Of a stretch of DNA of 64,000 nt, positions 6,066 through 45,288 are shown piece by piece (the first letter of the stretch is position 1; every line of letters starts with the position of its first letter). The stretch is from Polynucleobacter finlandensis. Its GTDB lineage: Bacteria > Pseudomonadota > Gammaproteobacteria > Burkholderiales > Burkholderiaceae. The position numbers and the translations under genes were made by a program. The notes beneath the pieces were generated by a model. That model ran no database searches. It was given only the letters and a program-made list of their open reading frames with translations, and was not told the DNA's origin. The DNA lies in contig NZ_JACVPS010000003.1 of NCBI RefSeq assembly GCF_018881755.1, positions 1 to 64,000 of the forward strand, read 5' to 3'.

Positions 6066-7046
6066 ATGAAGTTGTCATCCCTTGCGGCGCTGAGTCGTCG
6101 AATCATTATTGCCACCGCTTTCACAGTTGCTGCAAGCTCAAGCTTCGCCGCATATCCCGATAAGCCGATCAAGATGTTAATTGGTTATGCGCCTGGAAGC
6201 TCAACCGATATTGTTGGCCGCATGGTTGCACAGGACCTCAGCCTGCTATTGAAGCAGCCCATCATTGTTGAAAATCGCGGAGGGGCTGCCGGCAGCATAG
6301 CGGCTGATGCGGTTGCCAAAGCCACACCTGATGGCTACACCATACTGTTTGCGCAAAATGGCTTAGCGATTAACGTTGCTGCTAATCCTAAACTACCATT
6401 CAATGGCATGAAGGATTTGATTCCAGTGGTAGGTGTTTCTGCTACACCGCATATTCTGATTGTGAATAATAATTCGCCCATCAAAAATGTTGCTGAATTA
6501 CTTGCTGATTTAAGAGCCAATCCAGGTAAGCGGAGTTTTGCTTCTTCAGGGATTAGTAATTCGGACCATATGGCTGGTGAACTATTTCTATCCTTGACCA
6601 ATACCCAGGCTATTCATGTGCCCTACAAAGGCGGCTCTCCTGCGGCGACTGATGTACTTGGCGGTCAAATCGATTTCTATTTCGCTGGAATGCCAGTGGG
6701 TTATCCGTTGTACAAGGCTGACAAAGTTCGCGCGCTGGCAGTGACTAGCAAGCATCGCTTTAGTGGTACGCCTGAGTTACCAACAATCTTGGAGTCTGGG
6801 GTTACTGAATACGATATGGCTTTGTGGCAAGGCGTTTTTGTGCCTGCAGGAACGCCTAAGGATGTAATGAGCACCCTAACTGCTGGAGTGCTTAAGGTAT
6901 TGGATACCCCAGAAATGAAAGACCGCTTCATTAAAGCCGGCGTACAAATTGCGCCACTAAATCAAGCGCGCTTTAGTGATTTATATTTCTCAGACATCAC
7001 TCGCTGGAAGCGAGTGATGGAGAAATCAAATATTAAGTTGGACTGA
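6066..7046 (+). CDS. Bug/TctC-family periplasmic binding protein (1 of 4)
   Basis: 326 residues. A signal peptide (about 1-28, ending SSSFAA) is followed by YPDKPIKMLIGYAPGSSTDIVGRMVAQDL, the hallmark start of Bug (Bordetella uptake gene) receptors. ENRGGAAGSIAADAVAKATPDGYT follows, and the later HVPYKGGSPAATDVLGGQIDFYFAG ligand-binding segment. Bug proteins bind carboxylates or amides for tripartite tricarboxylate transporters, but no TctA/TctB is nearby. AATAGGAGA precedes the ATG. It closes the three-gene plus-strand group and is followed by a strong convergent terminator. Confidence 0.9.
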   Translation: MKLSSLAALSRRIIIATAFTVAASSSFAAYPDKPIKMLIGYAPGSSTDIVGRMVAQDLSLLLKQPIIVENRGGAAGSIAADAVAKATPDGYTILFAQNGLAINVAANPKLPFNGMKDLIPVVGVSATPHILIVNNNSPIKNVAELLADLRANPGKRSFASSGISNSDHMAGELFLSLTNTQAIHVPYKGGSPAATDVLGGQIDFYFAGMPVGYPLYKADKVRALAVTSKHRFSGTPELPTILESGVTEYDMALWQGVFVPAGTPKDVMSTLTAGVLKVLDTPEMKDRFIKAGVQIAPLNQARFSDLYFSDITRWKRVMEKSNIKLD

Positions 7047-31133: not shown

Positions 31134-31149
31134 AATGGTGGAGTCGGCG
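31134..31149. repeat. attL: 16-bp direct repeat of the ssrA 3' end
   Basis: AATGGTGGAGTCGGCG is identical to 44928-44943, where it is the 3' end of tmRNA (minus strand). Similarity stops immediately after it (TCAATTG here, GGAATCG at ssrA). The repeats delimit the integrated element. Confidence 0.92.
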
Positions 31150-31214
31150 TCAATTGAATCTAAATTGTAACTATATGATTTTATTGAAATAAATTCGTTA
31201 CTTAAATTACAATG

Positions 31215-31234
31215 TTCCCCTATTTGTTCCCCTA
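31215..31234 (+). repeat. Paired TTCCCCTA motifs near attL
   Basis: TTCCCCTA occurs at 31215-31222 and 31227-31234, a 12-bp period. The same pair with the same period and orientation recurs near the other end (44796-44815). These are candidate integrase arm-binding sites; function inferred from symmetry of position. Confidence 0.5.
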
Positions 31235-31247
31235 AGTGCTTTATGTA

Positions 31248-31276
31248 CCTACTTACTCTCTTGATAAGTAAGTAGG
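31248..31276. repeat. Inverted repeat inside the left element end
   Basis: CCTACTTAC and GTAAGTAGG form a perfect 9-bp stem (one more T-A pair inward) around an 11-nt centre. It lies between attL and the downstream end of the octapeptide-repeat gene. It may be a terminator lacking a strong T-run or a binding site; I cannot decide. Confidence 0.45.
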
Positions 31277-31309
31277 ATGTTTAGCGCTCTTTTTGGTGCA
31301 AGCTAAATA

Positions 31310-31693
31310 TTATTGACAGTTTGGGTTTCTCCAGTTGCTAGGACCATTTGAGCATCCACCGCCGGGTCCAGTAGACATGCCACCACCAGGTCCAGTAGAC
31401 ATGCCACCACCAGGTCCAGTAGACATGCCACCACCAGGTCCGGTGGAGAGACCACCGCCAGGACCTGTAGAGAGTCCACCGCCGGGTCCAGTAGACATGC
31501 CACCGCCGGGACCAGTAGACATGCCACCACCAGGTCCGGTTGATAAACCGCCACCAGGACCAGTAGAGAGACCACCACCGGGTCCAGTGGAACAGGGTCC
31601 TCCAGGACCGGAATAGCCTACGCAGCCCGCATAGACATTCATTGAGCTTATTAGCACACCAAAGATCAAAACTACCTTTTTAAATGTATTCAT
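31310..31693 (-). CDS. Secreted protein with ten STGPGGG-x octapeptide repeats
   Basis: 127 residues. Signal peptide about 1-22 (MNTFKKVVLIFGVLISSMNVYA), a short Cys-containing head GCVGYSGPGGPC, then ten tandem STGPGGG-x units (residues 35-114; x = L, L, M, M, L, L, M, M, M, C) and a tail ending NPNCQ. Four cysteines flank the repeat block. I know no family for it; the composition (Gly, Pro, Ser, Thr) suggests an extended or polyproline/collagen-like exported filament or surface coat protein, by inference only. It is cargo of the ssrA element, with an AGAGAC before the ATG. Two other frames over the same repeats also stay open but lack a signal peptide. Confidence 0.75.
   Translation of the reverse strand: MNTFKKVVLIFGVLISSMNVYAGCVGYSGPGGPCSTGPGGGLSTGPGGGLSTGPGGGMSTGPGGGMSTGPGGGLSTGPGGGLSTGPGGGMSTGPGGGMSTGPGGGMSTGPGGGCSNGPSNWRNPNCQ
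31352..31591 (-). repeat. Ten 24-bp tandem repeats coding the octapeptides
   Basis: The stretch consists of ten 24-bp units that differ by a few third-position and one codon change (Met/Leu). Because the period is a multiple of three, copy number can change by slippage without breaking the reading frame. Confidence 0.9.
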
Positions 31694-31785
31694 AGCGTCT
31701 CTTTTTATTAATAAAGGATTGAATCTAGTTACTGTTTATTAAGGAAAGCATATACCTATTTATTATAAAAAATAGATCCATTTCC

Positions 31786-32250
31786 ATGAATAACTCATTA
31801 ACAGCGAAATCAAGGGGTAGACTCAGTCTTCCCCAATGCATCAGCATAAGAATAGATCCAAAGACCAAGATGAGTGACGCAGAGTTCTTTGCCAAAGTAA
31901 TCCCCAAAAGACTTACTTCGTTAGCGGAGGATTTTAAGCAGTCCCAAGAAGAGTTCCGTAAGGATGAAAAAGATAGGGGGCTAAGAAGGGCGGGCAAAGT
32001 ACCTGAGCCTGAAGTTACTCGAGAAAGACTTTCCCATGAAGTAATTGATAAACAAGACCTCAGGACTCTTCTAAGGTCAGGGCAAGTACTTCCTGCATCT
32101 GAGTTAGCTAAACAAAAGGAAGATGCCGTGAGGCTTGCTAAAGATCTTGAGGAGGCGGTAAGGTCGGAGTTATCTCATCGTAGGACGAAGATCCAAACAG
32201 ATCCCGATAAGACTGTGGTTCATTACACCCGTGAGCCTTTTGAGGAATAG
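31786..32250 (+). CDS. Hypothetical polar protein (154 aa)
   Basis: 154 residues, highly charged, no signal peptide or membrane segment. Mostly helical with heptad-like runs (about 45-60 SLAEDFKQSQEEFRKDEKD and 108-132 SELAKQKEDAVRLAKDLEEAV) that may form coiled coil. No family recognised. A second ATG at 31870 (MSDAEFFAKV) could be the real start, as neither has a strong ribosome site. It is 59 bp upstream of the anchored protein at 32309 on the same strand. Confidence 0.55.
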   Translation: MNNSLTAKSRGRLSLPQCISIRIDPKTKMSDAEFFAKVIPKRLTSLAEDFKQSQEEFRKDEKDRGLRRAGKVPEPEVTRERLSHEVIDKQDLRTLLRSGQVLPASELAKQKEDAVRLAKDLEEAVRSELSHRRTKIQTDPDKTVVHYTREPFEE

Positions 32251-32308
32251 AGTTTGTAGCCAACACATGAGGATATAGTCGATAGAATAAGAATAAAGAA
32301 AGCTAAAA

Positions 32309-33025
32309 ATGGACAATAAACTTATTAAGCGTGCAGTTTGGATTATTGCAATCCTTGGCATATTTTTAGCCTTCGAATTGGTTGGGGACAAATTTAAAGT
32401 GGGAGGTACAGAGAGCTCCTACAAGTCTCAAGTGTCAACTTTTTCTGCCGAGGGTTCAGAGCAAAACCCCTCTACCGCTAATAAAGTAGAAATGTTGAAT
32501 TCCATTAACGCTCGTATTGAGGGCGAAACCGCTAAAGAATTAAAGCAGAACCCCAATCAAACCAAGAGCGAAGCGTCAGCTACAGCCGCTATAAGGGCTG
32601 GCGGTGAGGATCTACAGAGTGGCAATGGCGTTAGAACAAGAATTGAAAAAGCGTCAGACCAATTCCTTGGATTTTATTCAATGAATGCTATTTTTAGGGC
32701 TCGTTATTGTGAGAAGTTGGGTGTGCCAATTCCAGCTTTTGTAATGGCATTTAAAAAAGTTAATGATGATGAATACCAAATTGCCTCTGCTCAGTGGATT
32801 AAAGACACGCCAAGACTTGGAACGGCTGAGGAGAGGATAAAGTTTGGCTCACCAATTTTAATGCCAGCACTAGAGCAAGACATGCTCGATGTTACAAGGA
32901 TGATGAAGCTCTCATCACCAAAACAAGCTTGTGTAGAAATGCAACGGCAGGGCGATCTTTACGGAGATGACATGGCACTTCAAAAAGTTAATCCAGTCTT
33001 GTATGCCGCACTGCATGGTCGCTAA
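32309..33025 (+). CDS. Hypothetical membrane-anchored protein (238 aa)
   Basis: 238 residues with one N-terminal membrane helix (about 9-25, VWIIAILGIFLAFELVG). A polar low-complexity linker (about 30-110) follows, then a compact domain from about 115 (FLGFYSMNAIFRARYCEKLGVPIPAFVMAFKKVNDDEYQIASAQW) to the end. Two cysteines (about 132 and 211) could pair in the periplasm. Not recognised. It is cargo of the ssrA element between the hypothetical gene at 31786 and the restriction gene at 33146. Confidence 0.6.
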   Translation: MDNKLIKRAVWIIAILGIFLAFELVGDKFKVGGTESSYKSQVSTFSAEGSEQNPSTANKVEMLNSINARIEGETAKELKQNPNQTKSEASATAAIRAGGEDLQSGNGVRTRIEKASDQFLGFYSMNAIFRARYCEKLGVPIPAFVMAFKKVNDDEYQIASAQWIKDTPRLGTAEERIKFGSPILMPALEQDMLDVTRMMKLSSPKQACVEMQRQGDLYGDDMALQKVNPVLYAALHGR

Positions 33026-33145
33026 CTATAAAAGAGGCGGTGAAGTTAAGGTTTTAAAGTCCTTAAATCTCTTAATTCCATCGTCTAGTTAGGTTGGTAC
33101 GCATGGTAATCTAATGAAATACAAAAATTACCAAAAAACCCACAT

Positions 33146-36100
33146 ATGACAGCTTTAAGAGACGTTTTAGACTCATTCCGTGTCACCTCGCAGTCTGAGC
33201 GTGAAAAGGGAAATTATTTTGAAAACCTCAGTAAGCTTTATTTTCAAAATGAGCCCAAATACAAGGATCTTTATGAAAATGTCTGGCTATGGGAAGAATG
33301 GCGCAAGTATTGGATAGAGCAAGGTAATCCTGATCCTGGCACAGATACCGGAATTGATTTGGTTGCAAGAACAAAACAGACCGATGAGTATCACGCTATT
33401 CAGGCAAAGTTTTACGACTCTGAATCTACGCTTTATAAGCGACACATAGATTCATTTTTTACAGCATCCGGTAAGAAGCCTTTTACGCAGCGTTTATTGA
33501 TTTTGACTACAGATAATGTCAGTCATCACGTAGATGATGCCATGCAGGGTCAAAACACTCCTACGCAGAAGATAACCCTTAGTGATCTAGAAAACAGCAA
33601 GATTGACTGGGCTGAAACTTTTAATAAAAAAGAAGTTGTCTTAACAGAGGCAAAAACGCTTAGAGACTACCAGCGTAACGCCATTAGTAATGTTAGTTAT
33701 GGATTAGAAACTGCTGATAGGGGCAAGCTGATTATGGCTTGCGGTACTGGTAAAACTTTTACTGCTTTACGCCTGGCGGAAGAGGTGGCTGGCAAAGGCG
33801 GAAATGTCCTATTTCTTGTTCCATCACTTTCGTTACTGTCACAGACTCTAACTGAGTGGACCCAGGAATCTACCTTGCCGATGCATAGCTTTGCCGTTTG
33901 CTCTGATAGTGAAGTAGGTAAAAAGCGCGATAAAGACGATGACTACCAAATGTTGGTTCACGAACTACGCTATCCAGCCACTACCAACCCAAAAGCGTTA
34001 TCTCATGAATTTAATAAACGTAAAGATGGCGATCATCTAAACGTAATCTTCTCTACCTATCATTCAATCCAAGTCATTTCAGACGCCCAAAAGAAGCAAG
34101 ATTTACCAGACTTTGATTTAATCATTTGCGATGAGGCGCATAGAACAACTGGCGCTGTATATGACGGTGATGATGAGTCGGCGTTTGTAAAAATTCATAA
34201 CGCCGACTTCATTAAGTCTAGGAAGCGTGTCTATATGACCGCTACACCAAGGGTATACGGCGTTGCTGCAAAGGCTAAGGCTGAGAATGACAGCGTTGTT
34301 CTGTATGACATGGACAATGAAGATCAATATGGCAAGACATTGCATACACTCTCGTTCTCTGAGGCTGTTAAGCGTGGAATATTAGTAGATTACAAGGTCA
34401 TTGTTCTTACTATTAGCGAAGATCACATTAGTAAAAATCTACAAAAGGTATTAGCAGATGAAAACAATAGCCTGCGTGTAGATGATGCAGCAAAGATCGT
34501 TGGATGCTGGAGGGCGCTCTCTAAGCAGGATACTAAGGTAGATTTAGAGCTCGATCCAGAGCCCATGAAGAGAGCAGTTGCTTTCTGCCAAGTTATTGAA
34601 ATCAATAAAGGCGCTAAAACTCATAAAGTTAGTAGTAAAAATATTGCAAGCATGTTTCAAAAAGTAGTTGATGAATATCGCGCTGCTTTGATGAAAGAAA
34701 ACCCGGACCATGAGGATGCAGTTAGTCAATTAATTTGCGAAGCTGCACACGTAGACGGCAGTATGAATGCCTCTCAAAAAGAAGAAAAGCTCGATTGGTT
34801 AAAAGCCGAGATTCCAGAAAATACTTGCCGTGTTCTCAGTAATGTTCGCTGCCTATCTGAAGGTGTTGATGTCCCAGCTTTGGATGCAGTTTTGTTTCTC
34901 ACTCCAAGAAATTCACAGGTTGATGTAGTGCAGTCTGTTGGTCGTGTAATGCGTAAGCCAAAAGATAGTAAGAAGCAGCTTGGCTATGTCATCCTTCCAG
35001 TAGTTATTCCCGGAGGCATGACCCCTGAGGAAGCCTTAAACGATAACAAGAGTTACAAGGTAGTTTGGGAGGTATTGCAAGCCTTGCGTTCCCATGATGA
35101 TCGCTTTGATGCAATGATTAATAAGTTAGATCTTGCTGGTCAAGACAAAACAAAGATGGAAGTAATCGCCATCACTGACAAGATCCCTCCCAGGAAAATA
35201 ACTGAACCTGGCGCCGATATTGGTAAGGGTAAACCGAAGCTTAAGAAGGGTAAGGGCGGTGTAATTGGTGGCGTTCCCAAGGATTACGAAGATCCTAAGC
35301 AGGCAGAGCTCCCCATCGAAATTACCGAAATAGAGCGAGCCATCATGGCTAAGGTGGTTAAAAAATGTGGAAATAGGTTGTATTGGGATGAGTGGGCATC
35401 GGATATAGCAAGGATTGCTCAGACCCATGTCAGCCGGATTACTGCCATATTAGAGAATACGGAGCATAAGGCAGAAATAAAAGCATTTAATAAGTTCCTA
35501 AAGGATCTTAAAGAAGATCTTAATGACAGCATCAGCCGCGAAGAGGCTATAGAAATGCTGGCACAACATATTATTACTAAGCCGGTGTTTGATGCTTTAT
35601 TTGAGGGTTATAGTTTTGCTCAAAACAATCCAGTCTCGAAGGCTATGCAGGATGTTCTTAATGCACTCAATGAACATAATTTAGATAAAGAGGTTGATAC
35701 CTTAGAGAAGTTCTATGCCAGCGTGAAGATGCGAGCACAAGGCATTGATGATCTTGGAGCTAAGCAAAAAATCATAGTTGAGTTATACGATAAGTTTTTC
35801 AGAAATGCATTCCCCAAAATGACAGAGAAGTTGGGAATTGTCTATACCCCAGTGGAAGTGGTTGATTTTATTATTCATAGTATTAATGACGCATTAAGGA
35901 ATGAGTTTGGTCAAACCCTTGGAGATAGGAATGTACATATTCTTGATCCATTTACCGGAACCGGAACTTTTATTACCCGCTTATTGCAAAGTGGGCTAAT
36001 TGATAGAGAGCAGTTAGCCTATAAGTATAAAAACGAGATACATGCAAATGAAATTGTTCTACTGGCTTATTACATTGCAGCTATCAACATTGAGCAGGTA

Positions 36101-38098
36101 TACCACTCTATCGAAGGGGGTGACTACGTTCCATTTGATGGTATTTGTTTGACTGATACTTTTGCTTTATATGAAAAAGAAGATCTAGTCTCAGAATCAT
36201 TACGTGATAACAATGAACGTCTGAAAAAGCAGAAGGCATTAGATATTCGCGTGATCATGGGGAATCCCCCTTACTCTATCGGTCAGCGCAGCGAGAATGA
36301 TGGAAATGCAAATATTGAATACCCGTCACTAGATGGGCGCATTAAGGATACTTATGCACATTGCTCAAGTGCTACTTTGCAGAAAGGGTTATATGACAGC
36401 TACATCCGAGCATTGCGTTGGGCTAGCGATCGGATTGGTGATTGTGGCGTCATTGGATTTGTAAGTAATGCAGGATGGCTAGATGCTAATGCATGCGATG
36501 GGCTGAGAAAATGCTTAGCCGAAGAATTTAGTAGTATTTACGTATTTCATTTGAGAGGGAATCAAAGAACATCTGGGGAGCTCTCAAGAAAAGAAGGTGG
36601 AAAGATTTTTGGTGGTGGTAGTAGGACGCCAATCTCAATCTCCATCTTAATCAAGAACTCCGAAGCTAATGAGCATGGAAAAATATACTTTCATGACATT
36701 GGAGACTATCTAAGTCGTGAAGAAAAGCTGGAGAAAATTGATTTATTTAAAAGTACAGCTGGAATATCTGAAGCTAATAAATGGGTCCAAATCACGCCCG
36801 ATAAACACTGCGATTGGATAGGTCAGAGAGATGATAGTTTTAGTGAGCATATCAGCTTGGGAGACAAGAAAGATAAAAATTCTATAACGATATTTGATAA
36901 TTTCTCTCTTGGTGTGGCTACAAATCGTGATGCCTGGGTATATAACTTTTCGAAGAATCAGCTTTCAAAAAATATGGGTCGGATGATCGATTTTTATAAT
37001 TCTGAAGTCGAGAGATATAAGGATGCATGTAATGGGTTGAATAAAGCGAGCTATCCAATTGTGGAGTCTTTTATTAATACCGACAAAACTAAAATAAGTT
37101 GGTCAAGCAATTTGATTGCTGATTTAACTAGAAATAAGCTCGGTAATTTTACTGCCCAAAATATTGTCTTAAGTACTTATCGACCATTTCAAAAGCAATG
37201 GCTATATTTTAATAATTTGTTTAATAGCAGAATGGGTCAAATTCCTAAGATTTTTCCAAACTCTCATGCTAAAAATTTAGTGATTTGTGTTACGGGTCAG
37301 GGTGCTAAGCAATTTAGTGCACTAGTTTCTAATTCAATTCCCGATCTACAGGTTTTATTTAATGGGCAGTGCTTCCCTTTGAAGTTATACGAACCCCTGC
37401 CAGATAATATTTCAACTGATGGTGATTTGTTCTCATCAACTACGTTGGGCGAGATTTCTGAAGATGGAAGGTTTTCTCTTCGAGATGGCGTTAGTGATTC
37501 GGGTTTAAACCATTTTTTAGAAAGATACCCCGATCAAAATATCAGCAAGGAAGATCTGTTTTATTACATTTATGGAATTTTGCACAGCACTGATTATCGT
37601 GAAAAATATTCTGATAATTTAAGCAAGGAATTGCCACGAATTCCTGCAGTTAAATCCCCAAGTGATTTTTGGTTGCTCAGTAACGCTGGAAGGAGGCTTT
37701 CTGACTTGCATCTTAACTATGAGACTGCTTCACTCTACCCGGTCCGCTTTGAAAATCAAATGGACGGATTGACTGAGTCAGACTATCGAGTTACACAGAT
37801 GAAGTTTCTAGTAAGGGGTGATAAGTCTCGTGTTGCATATAACCCAAAAATCACCATTTTAGATATACCACTTGAGGCTTATGACTATGTAGTTAATGGC
37901 AAGCCTGCATTGGAGTGGGTAATGGAACGTCAATCTATCTCTACAAATAAAGATAGCGGTATCGTCAATGATGCTAATGAATGGGCTAATGAAACAATTC
38001 ACGATCCAGCTTATCCATTAAAACTATTTCAACGTGTAATTACGGTTAGCTTGGAAACAATGAAGATTGTTAATAGCCTTCCTAGGCTGAATATATAG
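33146..38098 (+). CDS. Single-chain restriction-modification enzyme (type ISP-like)
   Basis: 1650 residues in one chain. The N-terminal Mrr/PD-(D/E)xK-like nuclease shows GIDLVA (D71) and the QAK at 86-88. The SF2 helicase has the Walker A GTGKT (200-204), DEAH (329-332) and arginine-finger motif VI QSVGRVMRK (596-604). The methyltransferase has DPFTGTGTF (about 932-940) and the adenine-N6 motif NPPYS at 1040-1044; a C-terminal target-recognition-like region follows. This order (nuclease, translocase, N6-MTase, specificity) is that of type ISP enzymes such as LlaGI/LlaBIII, which cleave after translocation from two converging sites. All key motifs are intact, so it should be active. The PIF1-like gene follows 13 bp later. 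Confidence 0.9.
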   Translation: MTALRDVLDSFRVTSQSEREKGNYFENLSKLYFQNEPKYKDLYENVWLWEEWRKYWIEQGNPDPGTDTGIDLVARTKQTDEYHAIQAKFYDSESTLYKRHIDSFFTASGKKPFTQRLLILTTDNVSHHVDDAMQGQNTPTQKITLSDLENSKIDWAETFNKKEVVLTEAKTLRDYQRNAISNVSYGLETADRGKLIMACGTGKTFTALRLAEEVAGKGGNVLFLVPSLSLLSQTLTEWTQESTLPMHSFAVCSDSEVGKKRDKDDDYQMLVHELRYPATTNPKALSHEFNKRKDGDHLNVIFSTYHSIQVISDAQKKQDLPDFDLIICDEAHRTTGAVYDGDDESAFVKIHNADFIKSRKRVYMTATPRVYGVAAKAKAENDSVVLYDMDNEDQYGKTLHTLSFSEAVKRGILVDYKVIVLTISEDHISKNLQKVLADENNSLRVDDAAKIVGCWRALSKQDTKVDLELDPEPMKRAVAFCQVIEINKGAKTHKVSSKNIASMFQKVVDEYRAALMKENPDHEDAVSQLICEAAHVDGSMNASQKEEKLDWLKAEIPENTCRVLSNVRCLSEGVDVPALDAVLFLTPRNSQVDVVQSVGRVMRKPKDSKKQLGYVILPVVIPGGMTPEEALNDNKSYKVVWEVLQALRSHDDRFDAMINKLDLAGQDKTKMEVIAITDKIPPRKITEPGADIGKGKPKLKKGKGGVIGGVPKDYEDPKQAELPIEITEIERAIMAKVVKKCGNRLYWDEWASDIARIAQTHVSRITAILENTEHKAEIKAFNKFLKDLKEDLNDSISREEAIEMLAQHIITKPVFDALFEGYSFAQNNPVSKAMQDVLNALNEHNLDKEVDTLEKFYASVKMRAQGIDDLGAKQKIIVELYDKFFRNAFPKMTEKLGIVYTPVEVVDFIIHSINDALRNEFGQTLGDRNVHILDPFTGTGTFITRLLQSGLIDREQLAYKYKNEIHANEIVLLAYYIAAINIEQVYHSIEGGDYVPFDGICLTDTFALYEKEDLVSESLRDNNERLKKQKALDIRVIMGNPPYSIGQRSENDGNANIEYPSLDGRIKDTYAHCSSATLQKGLYDSYIRALRWASDRIGDCGVIGFVSNAGWLDANACDGLRKCLAEEFSSIYVFHLRGNQRTSGELSRKEGGKIFGGGSRTPISISILIKNSEANEHGKIYFHDIGDYLSREEKLEKIDLFKSTAGISEANKWVQITPDKHCDWIGQRDDSFSEHISLGDKKDKNSITIFDNFSLGVATNRDAWVYNFSKNQLSKNMGRMIDFYNSEVERYKDACNGLNKASYPIVESFINTDKTKISWSSNLIADLTRNKLGNFTAQNIVLSTYRPFQKQWLYFNNLFNSRMGQIPKIFPNSHAKNLVICVTGQGAKQFSALVSNSIPDLQVLFNGQCFPLKLYEPLPDNISTDGDLFSSTTLGEISEDGRFSLRDGVSDSGLNHFLERYPDQNISKEDLFYYIYGILHSTDYREKYSDNLSKELPRIPAVKSPSDFWLLSNAGRRLSDLHLNYETASLYPVRFENQMDGLTESDYRVTQMKFLVRGDKSRVAYNPKITILDIPLEAYDYVVNGKPALEWVMERQSISTNKDSGIVNDANEWANETIHDPAYPLKLFQRVITVSLETMKIVNSLPRLNI

Positions 38099-38111
38099 CC
38101 CCTTATAAGCA

Positions 38112-39542
38112 ATGAGCTTCCTAAAGAAACTTGAGGAATTTGTTGGCTCAAAGAAGGCTAATGTAGATGAGTTGAGGAAGGCGTCAGCGAGGACTCCGAC
38201 TAAGTCTTATGTTGCTAGCAGCGTATTTCCCGCTCAAAACTATGAAGAGATAGAGGTTACGCCTGATTACTTAGAGGTAATCAAGGCTATAGATGCGCAT
38301 GATCCGTTTATCTTTGTCAGTGGTAAAGCTGGAACAGGAAAAACTACTTTAATTGGGTATTTAAGGGAAAAAGTTGCGGGTAACGTAGTAGTAGTTGCTC
38401 CTACTGGAGTTGCCGCACTGCAGGTGAGGGGAGTAACAATCCATTCCTTTTTTCGCTTGCCACCAAGAATCATTTTCCCTGAGGAGGACATCAAGACCGT
38501 TAAAGATAGGCGAATGTATGAAGGCATACGCCTACTTATTATTGATGAGATATCAATGGTGAGGGCTGACATCGTAGATGCCATTGATTTGTTTCTTCGT
38601 ATCAACGGTCCTCAGCAAGGAAAGCCTTTTGGTGGTGTTCAGGTCATGTTTGTGGGCGATCTCTTCCAGTTACCGCCTGTAATCAACACCATCGAGATGG
38701 CATTGCTAAGAGATAGAGGCTATGAACAAGCCCATTTCTTTAATGCTATGGCTTTAACTGGCAAAGAAATGACGATGATTGAGCTGCAAAAGATCTTTCG
38801 TCAAAAGGATAAGCAATTTGTAGACATTCTTAACCATATTCGAGTTAATGAAGATATTGATGAAGCAATTGAGATTCTAAATAGGGAGTGTTATGAAAAA
38901 TACGCCTCCGACAGCTCGTATGCAATAACGCTGACGACTACCAATGCTAAAGCCGACTCAATCAATGAGTCTGAGCTAGAGGCGATTTCAGGTTCGCCGA
39001 CTATGTTTATTGGCTTACTAGACGGTAAATTTAATGTAGATGAGCGAAATCTACCATCACCGATGAATTTGACATTAAAGGTAGGTGCTCATGTCATGTT
39101 TACAGCTAACGATAAAGCGATGCCAAAACGTTGGGTTAATGGAACGATTGGGTTTGTTAGGGAATTTATTGGTGAAATGGTGCGGGTTGAAATTAAGACT
39201 CAGTCTGGGTCGCATATTGTTGATGTAACTAGCCATAAGTGGGAGTCTTACAAATATGAGTTGGATGCTACTACTGGGAAAATTAGTCCAGTAGTCATAG
39301 GTAGTTATCAGCAAATCCCCTTGATGCTTGCTTGGGCTGTCACCATCCATAAAAGCCAAGGTAAAACGATGGATCAAGTAAATGTAGATCTATCTGCTGG
39401 TGCATTTGCTTCTGGGCAGGTATATGTTGCTTTAAGCAGATGCAGAACTTTGAATGGAATTAGATTGAAGCGACCCATCAAGCAAAATGATGTACGTTGT
39501 GAGCCTGAAATCAAGAGATTTTATGAAGCACTAATTAATTAA
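38112..39542 (+). CDS. PIF1-like DNA helicase (AAA/SF1)
   Basis: 476 residues. Walker A is GKAGTGKTT (71-79), Walker B IIDEISMV (143-150), and the PIF1-type VGDLFQLPPV and the C-terminal AVTIHKSQGKTMDQVNVD (about 409-426) follow. It is the single-subunit SF1B helicase type of Pif1/RecD2 families, moving 5' to 3'. The first 50 residues are polar and unlike the core. The 13-bp gap from the restriction gene suggests co-transcription. A role in unwinding cut or replicating phage DNA is possible; this is inference. Confidence 0.88.
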   Translation: MSFLKKLEEFVGSKKANVDELRKASARTPTKSYVASSVFPAQNYEEIEVTPDYLEVIKAIDAHDPFIFVSGKAGTGKTTLIGYLREKVAGNVVVVAPTGVAALQVRGVTIHSFFRLPPRIIFPEEDIKTVKDRRMYEGIRLLIIDEISMVRADIVDAIDLFLRINGPQQGKPFGGVQVMFVGDLFQLPPVINTIEMALLRDRGYEQAHFFNAMALTGKEMTMIELQKIFRQKDKQFVDILNHIRVNEDIDEAIEILNRECYEKYASDSSYAITLTTTNAKADSINESELEAISGSPTMFIGLLDGKFNVDERNLPSPMNLTLKVGAHVMFTANDKAMPKRWVNGTIGFVREFIGEMVRVEIKTQSGSHIVDVTSHKWESYKYELDATTGKISPVVIGSYQQIPLMLAWAVTIHKSQGKTMDQVNVDLSAGAFASGQVYVALSRCRTLNGIRLKRPIKQNDVRCEPEIKRFYEALIN

Positions 39543-39543
39543 T

Positions 39544-39771
39544 CTAATCATTGAGTCTACTAGCCAAGCTCCTAGAGAAGGGCTTGGCGAGCCTCTTGAA
39601 TAACTTTAGCCATAGGATTGGCTTGACGTTAGAAGTCTCGCTACGAGGCTCTCTGCAGCCACAGTTAGCACCACAAACAATAGTTATCCCCTTATTACCG
39701 TAATCAATATGTGAAGCATTGATTTGCTTTTGAGTTGGTTGCTCTTCAAATGGATTATTCATAGACTTCAT
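39544..39771 (-). CDS. Small hypothetical protein with CGANCGC cluster
   Basis: 75 residues, convergent with the PIF1-like gene (1 bp gap). Mid-chain ITIVCGANCGCREPRSE has three cysteines in a CxxxCxC pattern that could bind a metal. The C-terminus is basic. No family recognised; it might also be a chance frame, as no strong ribosome site precedes it. Confidence 0.4.
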   Translation of the reverse strand: MKSMNNPFEEQPTQKQINASHIDYGNKGITIVCGANCGCREPRSETSNVKPILWLKLFKRLAKPFSRSLASRLND

Positions 39772-39949
39772 CTCAGTTTATAGGGACTAGTTATTTCAAG
39801 TCTAGCCTTTACCTTTTGTCTATCAAGATGATCATTTCTGTAGCGAGGGTTCTGCATAGCCAAGATGGCTTCCCAGATCCCATTAAATGGATAGATGGAG
39901 GATTGGTTTAATTTTTCAGAGAAGGGCATTTATAAGATCGTACAGAATG

Positions 39950-40708
39950 TTAGTTGCCCTGTTTATAAGAAGATGTTAATTCAAGACATTTTCTAAGGCT
40001 TATTTTTGAGGGTCCTTCAATGAAGCCTTCCCGAACCGCCCACTTTTCTGTATTACCTAAGGGATGCATCTTTTCCTTGGCTATATTGCGCTCCTCTTCA
40101 CCTCTCAAACAGATCTGTAATGGTGTCATATAGATTTGCAGCCAGGAAATGAATGCTACTGTTATGCAAACCATAGTTACGCATGCAAGCAGTGGTTTCC
40201 CAGTGATCAACTTCTTCAGACGCTGAGACCACTGTCTTGTTAGTATTAATGGCTTTGAGTAATTAGCGTTCGATGTTATCTCTTCGCGCTTCTTATGCCC
40301 ATCTTCCGCGGACTTTATTTGTCTCTGAAAGAATTTCATGAATGAATAAAAGACCGCTAGACCGAATATCGTCATCAAAATATATTCAATTGTGGGAAGA
40401 TCACCAGCGCTATTTTCTTCAAAGCCATATTTGTTGAAAAATATAAGAATGAAGGCAGCCCCACCAACTCCGGTAATTATTAGCAGGGCTTTAAAGAATG
40501 TAACAAGACTCGCATTTTTCTGCTTATGCATCAAATACGCAACATAGCCCCAAATAACGGGTCCAATGAGCACTTTCGATTGTGTGGCTATGCTAGATAC
40601 AAATGTCAGAAAGATCATTGCGATAGCAAAAATATAAACCCAAAGATAAGAACCTTGCATAGGGATATTTCTTATTACAACAACTTTCTCATCAACTGGA
40701 TTGGGCAC
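39950..40708 (-). CDS. Hypothetical multi-pass membrane protein
   Basis: 252 residues with about five hydrophobic segments (near 17-37, 43-60, 70-90, 108-125, 172-192) and a polar C-terminal domain (195-252, with cysteines in ICLRGEEERN and KCLELTSSYK). No family recognised. It is cargo of the ssrA element in a stretch between the helicase and the XRE regulator. A membrane partner of the defence genes or an unrelated gene are both possible. Confidence 0.6.
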   Translation of the reverse strand: MPNPVDEKVVVIRNIPMQGSYLWVYIFAIAMIFLTFVSSIATQSKVLIGPVIWGYVAYLMHKQKNASLVTFFKALLIITGVGGAAFILIFFNKYGFEENSAGDLPTIEYILMTIFGLAVFYSFMKFFQRQIKSAEDGHKKREEITSNANYSKPLILTRQWSQRLKKLITGKPLLACVTMVCITVAFISWLQIYMTPLQICLRGEEERNIAKEKMHPLGNTEKWAVREGFIEGPSKISLRKCLELTSSYKQGN

Positions 40709-40830
40709 TATGAAGTCCTATCTATTTAGAGCTATTGCATAAGAATCCCGCTTTGACGCTTAACTTTTGCGCTAACAGGTATTACTGGTCGCCTAGCTAT
40801 CGCCTTGAATTAAAGGCTCACTTTTCAATA

Positions 40831-40881
40831 CTACGTTTTACGTAGAGACTAAGCAAGGTGATTCTGCGATCTTCGTAGAAT
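40831..40881. promoter_or_regulatory. Two palindromes in front of the XRE gene
   Basis: CTACGT-TTT-ACGTAG (40831-40845) is a perfect 6-bp inverted repeat. ATTCTGCG-ATCTT-CGTAGAAT (40861-40881) is one mismatch short of perfect and covers the regulator's start codon. Both carry TCGTAG/CTACG-like half-sites and are good candidates for autoregulatory operators. Confidence 0.55.
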
Positions 40882-41212
40882 GCCCAGCAAAGAGACTGAA
40901 ACTACCAATAACCTGATCGGCACGCGCTTGCGTGAGGCTAGGTTGAGGGCGAATCTTCCTCAAGATAAGCTAGGTGTACTCATTGGCTTAGATGAGGGCT
41001 CCAGTAGCGCTCGAATCAGCCGCTACGAGACTGGTATCCATGAGCCAGCACTAGCAACAGCTCAAAAATTAGCTGAGATACTTAATTTACCCCTGTGCTA
41101 CCTGTACTGTGAAGATGATGAGATGGCTGAGCTCATCTTGGTATTGCATGCGCTAAAGAAATCAGAGCTTCAGAAGCTCCTGCGTCAGTATGAGATACCT
41201 AAAGTAAGCTAG
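40880..41212 (+). CDS. XRE-family transcriptional regulator
   Basis: 110 residues. The helix-turn-helix spans about 10-65: GTRLREARLRANLPQDKLGVLIGLDEGSSSARISRYETGIHEPALATAQKLAEILNLPLCYLY. A short helical C-terminus follows. It is a small repressor of the element-control type. The ATG lies inside a palindrome, suggesting autorepression. Its position near the centre of the element and next to a gene-poor stretch suits an element regulator, possibly of the integrase or defence genes. Confidence 0.87.
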   Translation: MPSKETETTNNLIGTRLREARLRANLPQDKLGVLIGLDEGSSSARISRYETGIHEPALATAQKLAEILNLPLCYLYCEDDEMAELILVLHALKKSELQKLLRQYEIPKVS

Positions 41213-41716
41213 TGCGCGTGAGTAGGTATGTGTATGGAGTCCTCATGCCCCCGGGGTCTTTTGTTTTTTGGTCCGCATGGGGGTGTGACTCGCGTGTTAC
41301 CCCCTGTTTTAAGAGTATTTACTGCTCTTACTTTACATAACGCGTCTTACACGCATCATTCGCAAGCCCGCTAAGTCATTGTCTATATAGGTTTGTTAAG
41401 TACGTATTGCATTACTTTGATTTGCATTTTCCAAAAGGCAATACCCGGCAGTAGTAAATGCACCACAGACTTATTAAATCATTTCGTGCGCGCGCGTACC
41501 GATGTGTTTATTAAACCCTATTTCGCATCATTATTTAAATCGATTCTAAAGGGCTTTGCACTCATCGAGAGCTCTTTAATTATTTAGGCTACCTCGATCA
41601 GTGACTCGTACTAAGAGTGCTCCAGAGTCTATTTATAAGACTCTGGAATGTCCTTTTGCATTACTAGTTGACAAATGATCCTTCCTGAACGTCTTCAAAG
41701 AAATCTCATTCATGCA
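41213..41716. other. Gene-poor stretch inside the ssrA element
   Basis: About 500 bp without a convincing gene. A 64-codon frame at 41393-41587 lacks a ribosome site and recognisable features. The notable structure is a perfect 10-bp hairpin TCCAGAGTCT-ATTTATA-AGACTCTGGA at 41621-41647, with only a weak T-run (CCTTTT) after it. An alternating GCGCGCGCGT run lies near 41489-41498. Confidence 0.6.
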
Positions 41717-42358
41717 TTAGCGTCCTTTAGATTGATGTAAGTATTCGCTTGATACGTCACTACTAAAACATGCTTTGATAAACGGATCCTCTTCATCCAC
41801 TGATACTTCCTTTACTACAAGTGCATTTGACTTTAAAGAATTTGAATTAATAGAAGTTGACTTAATAGAATTTAAAGAACCTTCAGGTACACCTTTAGGT
41901 AGACCTTGGGATTGTTTTTGCTGTTCAATACTCGCTTCACCCTTTATAGCCAAAGCCTTCGCTTTAGCTTCAGCTTTTGTTGCCTTACGTAATGCGCCTT
42001 CAATACCACCAAGGGACTGTGCTTCACGCTTGGCTAGAAAGCCTGCGCGATATTCATCTAACTCTAGGCTGTGCAACTGATTATTTGTCTCCTTAAAATA
42101 GTGCAGCACATTGTTAGTTAACCCACTCTCAACCTCCTTATCCTGAATACCAAGAATTTTGGCTAGATTGGCGGAATTGCGGGGCGCATTGGTATTAACC
42201 CAGCACTCAAGATAAAGGCTCAGTAATAAACCTCTTTCCACCAAACTCATGAGCCTATAACTTCGATCGGCGATGATGTTGGCTGCATAGAGTGGGAAGT
42301 AGGGAACGGGCTTAAGTGCGACTTGGCGGTGTAGTTTTGTGGCATCGTGGGTCTTCAT
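41717..42358 (-). CDS. Hypothetical element protein (DUF1376-like N-terminus)
   Basis: 213 residues. The N-terminal YFPLYAANIIADRSYRLMSLVERGLLLSLYLECWVN resembles the DUF1376-type winged-helix start of phage replication proteins, but the match is from memory. From about 120 the chain is Ala/Lys/Glu-rich, then Ser/Asn-rich and low in complexity. Second gene of a minus-strand group (AlpA-like, this) running towards the centre of the element. A replication or element-control role is possible. Confidence 0.5.
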   Translation of the reverse strand: MKTHDATKLHRQVALKPVPYFPLYAANIIADRSYRLMSLVERGLLLSLYLECWVNTNAPRNSANLAKILGIQDKEVESGLTNNVLHYFKETNNQLHSLELDEYRAGFLAKREAQSLGGIEGALRKATKAEAKAKALAIKGEASIEQQKQSQGLPKGVPEGSLNSIKSTSINSNSLKSNALVVKEVSVDEEDPFIKACFSSDVSSEYLHQSKGR

Positions 42359-42361
42359 GAT

Positions 42362-42604
42362 TTATCCCTCGACTTGATAGTTCAAAGGATCGGCTAACCA
42401 GCGATGAATCTCACGATTGTTCTGAAAGGAACAGCGAATACCCATACGAATAATCTTAGGGGCTTTGCCAACCTTTTCTAGTTGACGCCATTTTTCTCGG
42501 CTAACGGGAATGATATTTTTTAAATCACTCCAGCGACTCAATCCATCTGCTGGTAAAGTTTCTGGCAAAGGAATTACTGGTGATCCGTTGTTAATCCTAG
42601 TCAT
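42362..42604 (-). CDS. AlpA-like DNA-binding protein
   Basis: 80 residues. SDLKNIIPVSREKWRQLEKVGKAPKIIRMGIRCSFQNNREIHRWLADP follows the winged-helix pattern of AlpA/excisionase (MerR-like) proteins: helix 'sr.tw.rl...g.fP....l..r...w....v..Wl'. In P4-like elements AlpA turns on the integrase or acts as the excision factor. It starts 129 bp downstream of the gene at 42734, on the same strand as the integrase. Confidence 0.75.
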   Translation of the reverse strand: MTRINNGSPVIPLPETLPADGLSRWSDLKNIIPVSREKWRQLEKVGKAPKIIRMGIRCSFQNNREIHRWLADPLNYQVEG

Positions 42605-42733
42605 TTTTATTACTCCTAATGCGCCGGTTGCTCAAGATGGGCAATCAAGGCTTAGAAGTAATTTATTTCTATTGAGCCTTGGCGAGAAGGTGTGTGCCAG
42701 CAAGATGCGCACCCTGCTAGCAAACTGACATTC

Positions 42734-43528
42734 TTATATTTGCCTGCCCCATTCTCTACACCAATCGGTGATGACCTTTTCACTAGTAAGAGACTCAAAT
42801 TTCCCCAACATGTCATTAGCAAAAGTAGTTTTATTCTTGTAGCGCCTTGGATCGGCTTGCCATAGATCCCAGCATTCTTTGACATTTACTTTGTCTAATT
42901 GCTTGGGATCCTTACGATAGCGTAAGCTTGCTTTCCTCTTAGCTGACTCGCTGTTCTCGCGCACCATTGATTCCCACCCAAAGCAATAGTTAGCTAAGCT
43001 GCGAGATTCCATCACATCATAAAATTGCTCTACCAAATATTTAGATTCCCCCCTGCCGATAGACTGATCAATCTGCACTAAATTGCATAGAGCAAAGGCA
43101 TCGAGCATGACCTCGATGATGTCTGAATCTTTAATCTGAGGGAGTTGGTCTTTTATTCTCTTGGTGGTTATCCCATCGGCAAGATGCTCATAAAAGGCTT
43201 GGGTCTTTGAGCCAGAATCAATCCACCACTTAGCTCCAGAGATTGATTCCTGTGTTGATTTGGTATTTTCAACAGCACCAGCCTTAAGGGAGAGATCCCA
43301 CCAAATACGGGATTGGAACTCTGTGATCTGAAGCTCTGTTAATGCAATATTAACTATTAGATCAACGACATCAATTGCTTGTAACTTGTGGTAACTCTTT
43401 ACGTACATGTCATTAAACCCATCCCCAAAATGCAGGATATTATTTGCTAGCTTCAGCTTGGGTAGCTTAGGCTGCAACTCTACTTGCTTGAGAGCCAGCT
43501 TCAGTGATTGGGTGGCAATATCATCCAC
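42734..43528 (-). CDS. Hypothetical protein next to the integrase
   Basis: 264 residues, no membrane segments. The C-terminal part (about 205-262) has VKECWDLWQADPRRYKNKTTFANDMLGKFESLTSEKVITDWCREW, a pattern I associate with uncharacterised proteins beside P4-type integrases. The first 200 residues are helical and unfamiliar. It is 5 bp downstream of the integrase gene and so is probably co-transcribed with it. A role in integration control or replication is guesswork. Confidence 0.6.
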   Translation of the reverse strand: MDDIATQSLKLALKQVELQPKLPKLKLANNILHFGDGFNDMYVKSYHKLQAIDVVDLIVNIALTELQITEFQSRIWWDLSLKAGAVENTKSTQESISGAKWWIDSGSKTQAFYEHLADGITTKRIKDQLPQIKDSDIIEVMLDAFALCNLVQIDQSIGRGESKYLVEQFYDVMESRSLANYCFGWESMVRENSESAKRKASLRYRKDPKQLDKVNVKECWDLWQADPRRYKNKTTFANDMLGKFESLTSEKVITDWCREWGRQI

Positions 43529-43533
43529 AGTAT

Positions 43534-44754
43534 TTATTTGCCTTTAAGTTCGTCAAGATAGTCCGCCCAACGCTGCATGATTGGACCCCTTTGTTTAATG
43601 TAGATTGCACGGTTGTAGGATGTCCCATTGGCATCCTTTACCGCATGTGCTAATTGGGCTTCCAGGTGCTCTATCGGCTCGTTTAGTTGTTCGGCTAGCA
43701 TTGTTCTGGCGCTAGCCCTAAACCCGTGCCAGCTTTGCGATTCACCAAAGCCCAAGGAGTAAAGAGCGCTACGAACACTGTTGTCACTAATTGGCTTACT
43801 TGCTTGCCTTTCGCCCCTGAAAACATATTCGCTGTTGCCGATATAGGGCTTTAGTTCGTTAAGCAATTTGATTGCTTGAGTGGGGAGGGGAACATAATGG
43901 GACTGCCCATTTTCCTTACCTTCTAGTGTGCGCTTCATCTCTGATGCTGGGATAGTCCAGAGTTGTTCGTCAAAATCAATTTGTGACCATCTCATGGTGC
44001 GTAGATTTTGTGGTCGCTGAAAAAGAATGGGCGCTAATTTCAAAGCAGTCTTTACAACAATTCCACCGTGGTAAAGGTCGATTGCTTTTAGTAGTTCACT
44101 AAAACGCTTTGGGTCAGTTATTGCAGGAAAATTTTTACCGCGATAAGTTTGTAATTTCGCTTTGATTCCACGAGTGACATCAGGGATTTGATCAAGGGCA
44201 ACAAAGTCATAGACTTGCCTGCAAATCATTAATCCTCTGTCTGCAGTCTCAATTGCACCGCGTTCCTCCACTTTCTTTAACGCTTGAAGTATTTCTAGCC
44301 CAGTTAGCTCTTTTATAGGGCGAGTGCCGAGCACTGGGAATAAATCCCGCTCCATTTGCCTAAGCGTTCGTTTAGCGTGCTCGATACTCCAGCCTGCCTC
44401 TTTATTTTTATACCAAGCGAGAGCCACGGTCGAGAAGGTCGGGTCATCGGGAAGGCTCCTGGTCTGTTTCAGGAGTTTCTTTATTGAGTTAGGGTCCTGT
44501 CCAGCTTGGTGTTGCTGCTTTAATCTATCCCTCTCGATTCGAGCATTTTTAAGGGAAACTTTGCTATAGCTACCAATAGCAGCTCTTTTTTCCTTACCTT
44601 CAAACCAGTACTTCCAGAACCATGATTTGTTACCTGAAGGCAATACCTCAAGGTATAGGTTCTCAGCGTCATAAAGCCTATGACGTTTTTTATCGGCAGG
44701 GCATAAGGCGCTTTTACAGAGCGGGTCGGTTAGCATCCCATCAGGATAGTCCAT
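43534..44754 (-). CDS. P4-type tyrosine integrase
   Basis: 406 residues. The N-terminal DUF4102-like domain starts at LTDPLCKSALCPADKKRHRLYDAENLYLEVLPSG. Then the SAM-like core-binding domain (about 105-190) and the catalytic domain with FQRPQNLRTMRW (Arg I), HGFR (His 343, Arg 346) and the nucleophile Tyr 380 in GTSYNRAIYI follow. All catalytic residues are present, so it should be active. It lies 176 bp from the 3' end of ssrA and reads away from it, the usual arrangement. The ATG at 44736 (MLTDPL) may be the true start, as it matches P4-type integrases better. Confidence 0.95.
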   Translation of the reverse strand: MDYPDGMLTDPLCKSALCPADKKRHRLYDAENLYLEVLPSGNKSWFWKYWFEGKEKRAAIGSYSKVSLKNARIERDRLKQQHQAGQDPNSIKKLLKQTRSLPDDPTFSTVALAWYKNKEAGWSIEHAKRTLRQMERDLFPVLGTRPIKELTGLEILQALKKVEERGAIETADRGLMICRQVYDFVALDQIPDVTRGIKAKLQTYRGKNFPAITDPKRFSELLKAIDLYHGGIVVKTALKLAPILFQRPQNLRTMRWSQIDFDEQLWTIPASEMKRTLEGKENGQSHYVPLPTQAIKLLNELKPYIGNSEYVFRGERQASKPISDNSVRSALYSLGFGESQSWHGFRASARTMLAEQLNEPIEHLEAQLAHAVKDANGTSYNRAIYIKQRGPIMQRWADYLDELKGK

Positions 44755-44815
44755 TAGGGGAACAATATGGAATATTTATAAAGAGATTTGCTTTATGCCC
44801 CTATTTATTCCCCTA
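44755..44815. repeat. TTCCCCTA-type motifs near attR
   Basis: TAGGGGAA at 44755-44762 (inverted), TGCCCCTA at 44796-44803 and TTCCCCTA at 44808-44815 lie beside the integrase start. The last two share the 12-bp period and orientation seen at 31215-31234. Candidate arm-type integrase sites that could also regulate the integrase promoter. Confidence 0.5.
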
Positions 44816-44859
44816 ATTTTGTATTCTTCCCATGGTTTACTGAGGTTTGCAATAGACAA

Positions 44860-44895
44860 CAAAAAACCCCTTAAGTCTTTATTCTATAAGGGGTT
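44860..44895 (-). terminator. Element-supplied terminator of ssrA
   Basis: On the minus strand AACCCCTTA and TAAGGGGTT form a 9-bp stem around a 13-nt loop, followed by TTTT and GTTG. It lies 35 bp after the tmRNA 3' end, inside the integrated element, so it would have taken over from the displaced original. Confidence 0.85.
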
Positions 44896-44927
44896 AGTTG
44901 CTGTTGCTAGGTAATGCTACTACTAAT

Positions 44928-44943
44928 AATGGTGGAGTCGGCG
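44928..44943. repeat. attR: ssrA 3'-end direct repeat
   Basis: AATGGTGGAGTCGGCG is the same 16 bp as 31134-31149. It encodes the CGCCGACTCCACCA 3' end of tmRNA on the minus strand. Confidence 0.92.
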
Positions 44944-45288
44944 GGAATCGAACCCGCGTCCGCAAATCCTCTACAGCAAGTTCTACATACTTAGTCGTGT
45001 CATTTAATTTAGCTAGCTAGTCACAGACTGACATGTTCCACGCTCGCGATTCACTAAATTTTCGAACCATTCCCCGTGACATGAAATGGTCTTATCTCTT
45101 GTAAATGACCCTGATCTAGCTTTCGCTAGCTGACCCAAGAGAGAATCAGTTCAGGGGCAACCGCAATTAAGCGGCTAGTGCGAAACGTTCGTCGTTTGCA
45201 GTTATTACATTCCCATTGATTTACGAGATAACGGGTCCTCGGTATGCCCTTGATGCTTTGTAATCCACGTCGAAACCATGTCGACCCC
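44930..45288 (-). ncRNA. ssrA: Transfer-messenger RNA (tmRNA)
   Basis: 359 nt on the minus strand. The 5' GGGGTCG (from 45288) pairs with the 3' CGACTCC-ACCA in a tRNA-like acceptor stem, and the T-arm GGTTCGATTCCCGCC is near the 3' end. An internal frame encodes the tag ANDERFALAA. tmRNA rescues stalled ribosomes by adding the tag for proteolysis. Its 3' end is the integration site of the 13.8-kb element and stays intact. Confidence 0.95.
45167..45199 (-). CDS. tmRNA tag-encoding frame
   Basis: On the minus strand GCA AAC GAC GAA CGT TTC GCA CTA GCC GCT TAA gives ANDERFALAA, the degradation tag common in betaproteobacteria. It is translated after trans-translation, without its own start codon. 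Confidence 0.92.
   Translation of the reverse strand, partial: ANDERFALAA

Follow-up and report, generated by a model that had tools for sequence, protein, structure and literature searches.

A Type ISP restriction enzyme and an extra PIF1 helicase encoded side by side in Polynucleobacter finlandensis

In the 64,000-nucleotide stretch of Polynucleobacter finlandensis DNA analysed here (the window), the gene for a full-length Type ISP restriction-modification enzyme is followed directly, on the same strand, by one for an extra copy of a PIF1 helicase. A second pair with the same layout occurs in another class of the phylum and appears to have formed independently. We consider it possible, at a little under an even chance, that this helicase is an optional accessory to the Type ISP enzyme, working on DNA which the latter has nicked or cut; its activity, co-transcription, joint action and substrate are what we infer from the genes and their arrangement. 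The two genes are as follows.

33146 to 38098, plus strand: Type ISP restriction-modification enzyme, 1650 aa (open reading frame, domains, PADLOC, PDB, motifs)
38112 to 39542, plus strand: PIF1 helicase, 476 aa, an extra copy whose N terminus is longer than those of the chromosomal copies measured (open reading frame, Pfam, PDB, motifs)

The restriction enzyme and the linked helicase

The product of 33146-38098 is a full-length Type ISP enzyme of the LlaBIII family, with activity predicted from its sequence. Pfam matches along the chain are Mrr_cat_2, ResIII/Helicase_C, ISP_coupler (PF22240), N6_Mtase and Type_ISP_C (PF18135, E=6.9e-111), which is the single-chain order of Type ISP enzymes: Mrr-type nuclease, SF2 ATPase, coupler, N6 methylase and ISP C-terminal domain. 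The full-length PADLOC model, there named REase_MTase_IIG, matches residues 1-1650 with 2315 bits, and the top solved structures in a PDB search are LlaBIII (4xqk, 1222.6 bits over residues 12-1649) and LlaGI (5ffj). A motif search found the nuclease, Walker A, DEAH and NPPY motifs all intact. This is the sole Type ISP enzyme of the P. finlandensis genome.

The linked helicase matches PF05970 (E=3e-29), and its best PDB relatives are solved PIF1-type helicases (8bnv, 7bil, 6s3e, 5fhd). The motif search identified a stretch conforming to PFGG.Q and the motifs that mark SF1B, placing the protein among the PIF1 helicases. Pfam and PADLOC revealed helicase/AAA domains only, with no nuclease, toxin or sensor domain, and its PADLOC matches are partial and to longer proteins. 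Its predicted structure has a mean pLDDT of 42.6 and was left out of the argument. It thus shares the helicase core and motifs of the solved bacterial PIF1 enzymes but differs from them in being linked to a restriction enzyme, in being an extra copy and in its longer N terminus.

Only 13 bp separate the stop codon of the restriction enzyme from the ATG of the helicase, and no terminator-like match was found at the junction. The first-pass annotation had described a 1650-aa nuclease-DEAH-N6 methylase fusion followed at this distance by a PIF1-type helicase; both open reading frames, their domains and the spacing are confirmed. The borders of the carrier element, the second PIF1 of the genome and the exchangeable cargo are additions of the present analysis. 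The window enzyme is related over its whole chain to LlaBIII and LlaGI, with which it shares nuclease, SF2 ATPase, coupler, N6-adenine methylase and specificity domains in one polypeptide. However, these two are described as single-chain enzymes (PMC7049714, PMC4666363), whereas the window enzyme has a helicase gene directly behind it.

An extra PIF1 copy with its own history

The second PIF1 of P. finlandensis is chromosomal, lies on another contig and is 67% identical to the linked copy. Among 151 genomes of the genus, this is the only one with two full-length PIF1 copies; in four others with two matches, these are fragments or include one very weak match. Differences between the linked and chromosomal genes at the three codon positions are 0.28, 0.18 and 0.61 (456 codons), and the excess at third positions is a sign that the linked gene is under purifying selection.

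PIF1 is a common gene of this genus, with matches in 119 of the 151 genomes, one of them at just 37% identity, and the closest PIF1 relatives among named records are from Polynucleobacter. In the family-level draw, 44 of 299 genomes gave a PIF1 match; the 32 strong ones all belong to this genus, and the 12 from other genera are weak and partial. The gene beside PIF1 in locus L049 recurs in 47 of the 60 PIF1 loci examined (L049 included), which indicates that PIF1 is mostly chromosomal and sits in a common neighborhood. In the tree, the linked copy groups with the PIF1 proteins of the genus (support 99/97), branching outside the main genus clade, inside which the chromosomal copy of P. finlandensis falls. 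The linked gene is therefore not a recent duplicate of its own chromosomal counterpart. An origin in phages is also not favored, since all 575 matching phage records are below 60% identity and, in the tree, the window copy falls among those of the genus. One record among the viral_contigs (L128) is 69% identical to the linked PIF1 and by eye resembles genus DNA adjoining an integrase-like open reading frame.

A second pair in another class

The other pair is found in genome G931 (about 0.9 Mb, 100% complete), which is labelled as the same phylum and hence represents another class. Its Type ISP gene ends at position 6508 of locus L275 and PIF1 starts at 6510, leaving 1 bp between them, with order and strand as in the window. 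The two restriction enzymes are 46% identical. As in P. finlandensis, a further PIF1 is encoded elsewhere in the genome. The linked G931 helicase is 51% identical to this second copy and 38% identical to the linked helicase of the window, and the two G931 copies join in the tree with support of 100/100. Because each linked PIF1 groups with the PIF1 of its own host lineage, the arrangement seems to have arisen twice, each lineage placing its own kind of PIF1 behind a Type ISP enzyme, as judged from these sequence relationships.

Both linked helicases also have long N termini, with 70 residues before Walker A in the window and 66 in G931. The median is 34 in 96 PIF1 copies of the genus, none of which reaches 65, and the second G931 copy has at most 38 (counted by eye). 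The two extensions are not significantly alike, as 448 of 5000 shuffles score as high.

A second, apparently independent pair with the same layout, in a genome that holds a further PIF1, favors a functional link. By a rough estimate, the number of cases of this kind expected by chance among the 82 other loci compared is well below 0.05, a figure that was obtained after the fact for one case and that rests on two PIF1 genes among perhaps 900 in G931, PIF1 being rare or absent in most of the groups sampled. A serine recombinase gene lies upstream of the G931 pair on the other strand. Behind the pair is an 869-aa open reading frame (L275, 7947-10556, minus strand) that gives no Pfam match and appears primase-like by eye only.

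How often the two genes adjoin

A conserved two-gene system would be expected to keep the genes adjacent in most relatives, whereas, among 83 distinct ISP-type loci whose downstream sequence is 600 bp or longer, PIF1 is present in only two, namely the window and G931. This count is pooled from 426 loci tested; some of the 83 distinct C-termini belong to relatives that match in the C-terminal part only and may be Type IIG, near-identical relatives are counted apart, and at many loci the flank is limited to about 1.5 kb.

The genus, family, class and phylum samples, which are draws rather than full sets, give a similar picture. Some Type ISP match is present in 13 of the 151 genus genomes and a full-length enzyme in two, the window's and that of G073, beside which there is no PIF1. 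Seven further full-length and two broken Type ISP genes came from 299 genomes of the family, with PIF1 in none of the fetched stretches. Among 321 genomes of the class, the enzyme (E<=1e-100) occurs in 15 and PIF1 (E<=1e-30) in five, and both occur together only in P. finlandensis. At the level of the phylum, eight of 299 genomes have the enzyme (E<=1e-150).

Approaching the pair from the helicase side gave no further case. No Type ISP gene lies within the fetched flank of 80 PIF1 loci from the genome_contigs (80 kept of 88), beside 80 from the viral_contigs (80 kept of 356) or beside 23 mixed loci, 16 of which are plasmid regions (of 30 plasmid records). Likewise, PIF1 is present at none of 40 Type ISP loci from the viral_contigs, and a joined query of the two proteins reached at least 80% coverage in none of 338 matching plasmid records. 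Searches of the open-access literature gave no report of the pair; the passages on PIF1 consulted there concern the WYL-domain PIF1 of Thermotoga or its reference. The first-pass annotation had named rare adjacency of the homologues as an observation that would undo the proposed system, and the counts largely show such rarity, but a pair in a second class exists.

Possible roles of the linked helicase

Type ISP enzymes are described in PMC7049714 as translocating from unmodified sites, converging head to head and nicking both strands at positions some 30 bp from each other; additional nicks lead to a break. PIF1 enzymes are 5'-3' Superfamily 1 helicases whose bacterial roles are called less known (PMC9964779). 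A combined pathway can be envisaged in which the window enzyme would, as expected of its type, methylate its target adenine on one strand and, on unmodified DNA, two enzymes would translocate towards each other, collide and introduce nicks with this spacing, further nicking producing a break. The extra PIF1 might then open the duplex between the staggered nicks or strip away stalled complexes. Such an activity could complete the destruction of invading DNA, or could allow accidental events on the host chromosome to be cleared and repaired.

In favor of such an accessory role we count the repetition of the layout in G931, the further PIF1 in both genomes (with P. finlandensis alone among the 151 of the genus in having two full-length copies), the apparently separate recruitments, purifying selection, the longer N termini and the nick spacing of Type ISP enzymes. 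Against it stand the two occurrences in 83 loci, the failure of the joined query to find an adjacent pair in plasmids, the Type ISP gene of G073 with no PIF1 beside it, the diversity of close downstream reading frames, the dissimilarity of the two extensions and the fact that independent recurrence amounts to one case besides the window.

Nearly as likely, and to us a serious if somewhat less probable candidate, is that PIF1 is cargo that landed behind the restriction gene by chance. Its work would then be unconnected with restriction and lie in the general replication or repair of either the element or its host. The rarity of the adjacency speaks for this. PIF1 is moreover a chromosomal gene in the genus, occurs in phages (575 records) and is found without a Type ISP gene in the 16 plasmid regions read of 30. 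The diverse close reading frames behind Type ISP genes and the exchange of cargo among related elements, both presented below, also fit a passenger. However, the second, apparently independent pair with the same layout, estimated to be unlikely by chance, counts against this alternative.

In a stronger form of the accessory-helicase hypothesis, a PIF1 of the host lineage would have become the dedicated partner of a Type ISP enzyme on two or more occasions. This helicase would open the roughly 30-bp duplex between nicks and thereby make restriction irreversible, or would shield host replication forks from the restriction motors, its longer N terminus serving as a docking part. We regard this version as rather unlikely. 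If true, it would give a system so far known as single-chain a variant made of two genes, and would exemplify a broader tendency for the site behind the enzyme to take up exchangeable helper or backup genes. A helicase recruited twice to one place would show that Type ISP enzymes can gain a processing partner. The pair would also make the events after nicking testable, and could give a function to a bacterial PIF1.

Genes directly behind Type ISP enzymes

An open reading frame of at least 100 aa starts within 60 bp of the stop codon at 13 of 36 chosen Type ISP loci, including the window and G931, and these reading frames are of many kinds, several of them defence-like. Among viral_contigs, 16 of 40 loci have a close downstream reading frame of at least 90 aa. 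The tables cover the 36 chosen loci (23 of which are in two tables) and 40 of 55 viral_contigs loci, the other 15 having matched the enzyme only partly; broken or split genes (L169, L206, L220, L221) were left out, and the reading frames are mechanical calls, some of which will not be genes. By Pfam, the close downstream products include putAbiC (L162), CAP12/Pycsar TIR (L267), Mrr_cat with a below-cutoff AbiJ_NTD5 stretch (L216), ankyrin (L217), a borderline TPR (L159) and a YkgJ-like CxxCxxCC protein (L190), while the AbiTii gene at L160 is farther away, at a distance of some 490 bp. Given this diversity, close spacing alone is a weak argument for a joint function. The position behind the enzyme can be a variable site for helper or backup genes, or one of plain cargo turnover.

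The abortive-infection-like genes close behind some enzymes (L162, L267, and Mrr_cat/AbiJ_NTD5 at L216) bring to mind a guard or second defence layer, in which PIF1 would be triggered when a phage inhibits the restriction enzyme and would then block the phage or the cell, as PrrC does alongside a Type I enzyme. Guardians of restriction-modification systems are known (PMC12707154), and EcoprrI-PrrC, a Type I system with an embedded guard gene, resembles the window in coupling a restriction system to a closely linked second gene. However, PrrC is an anticodon nuclease, whereas the toxic effector domain expected of such a guard was not found in the linked PIF1, whose domains are those of a helicase, whose partial PADLOC matches are to longer proteins and which is not known to act as a guard. 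Both linked copies moreover derive from host-lineage helicases. The first-pass annotation had raised this idea, which gained no support, and we consider it improbable.

The record annotation of one downstream reading frame in the set L162, L216, L267, L190, L217, L159, L266 and L160 is TcmP. In four genus loci (L224-L227), the Type ISP match is limited to the N-terminal nuclease and ATPase; three of these reading frames are 928-995 aa long, and the fourth lies at a contig end.

The carrier element

A 16-bp stretch at the 3' end of the tmRNA gene, from 44928, is repeated exactly at 31134. On the basis of these repeats and an adjoining tyrosine integrase gene, the element was taken to span about 31134-44943 (~13.8 kb). 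Besides the pair, its features are:

31134 to 31149: left att repeat, 16 bp identical to the 3' end region of the tmRNA gene
31786 to 32250, plus strand: 154-aa open reading frame, with weak relatives in elements L245, L246 and L254 and, in L034, next to an ISP-like N-terminal gene
32309 to 33025, plus strand: 238-aa open reading frame, with no match in family searches
39950 to 40708, minus strand: 252-aa open reading frame, membrane-like by eye
40880 to 41212, plus strand: HTH regulator, also present in element L245, where no Type ISP gene was found
41717 to 42358, minus strand: 213-aa open reading frame common to related elements
42362 to 42604, minus strand: 80-aa open reading frame common to related elements, AlpA-like by eye, with no Pfam match
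42734 to 43528, minus strand: 264-aa open reading frame common to the window element and L245
43534 to 44754, minus strand: tyrosine integrase of the element
44928 to 44943: right att repeat at the tmRNA 3' end
44930 to 45288, minus strand: tmRNA gene, the integration site

A related integrase (E<=1e-60) is encoded in 12 of the 151 genus genomes, including that of the window, and elements from 10 of the 11 others were compared. Neither the restriction enzyme nor PIF1 was found in these ten by tblastn with the window proteins, several of the stretches stopping at contig ends, and the pair is thus best regarded as element cargo. PIF1 as a core gene of the element, with no link to defence, had been named as an observation that would undo the proposed system; the helicase is not core by this comparison, yet PIF1 is a chromosomal gene in the genus.

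Two neighbors were considered as partners of the enzyme. The 154-aa reading frame is not favored, as the elements with its weak relatives gave no Type ISP gene, although its relative in L034 lies directly upstream of an ISP-like nuclease-ATPase gene. The HTH protein matches a PADLOC model of restriction-modification control proteins, but its 75% identical copy lies in L245, where again no Type ISP gene was found.

L245 and the window element share the integrase (89% identity), three neighboring genes (59-90%) and the HTH gene (75%), and differ in their remaining cargo. L248 carries a Type I restriction-modification system, and in L247 there are methylase and specificity genes of Type I, AbiEii and a gene whose relatives include PADLOC Orf5 and Type IV enzymes. 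These appear as an integrative element family with exchangeable cargo, the tmRNA gene being the site in the window, L247 and L248. Two viperin-like reading frames (weak match) are present in L245. Within the left border of the window element (31310-31693, minus strand) is a 127-aa open reading frame with a repeated Gly/Ser-rich unit (STGPGGG).
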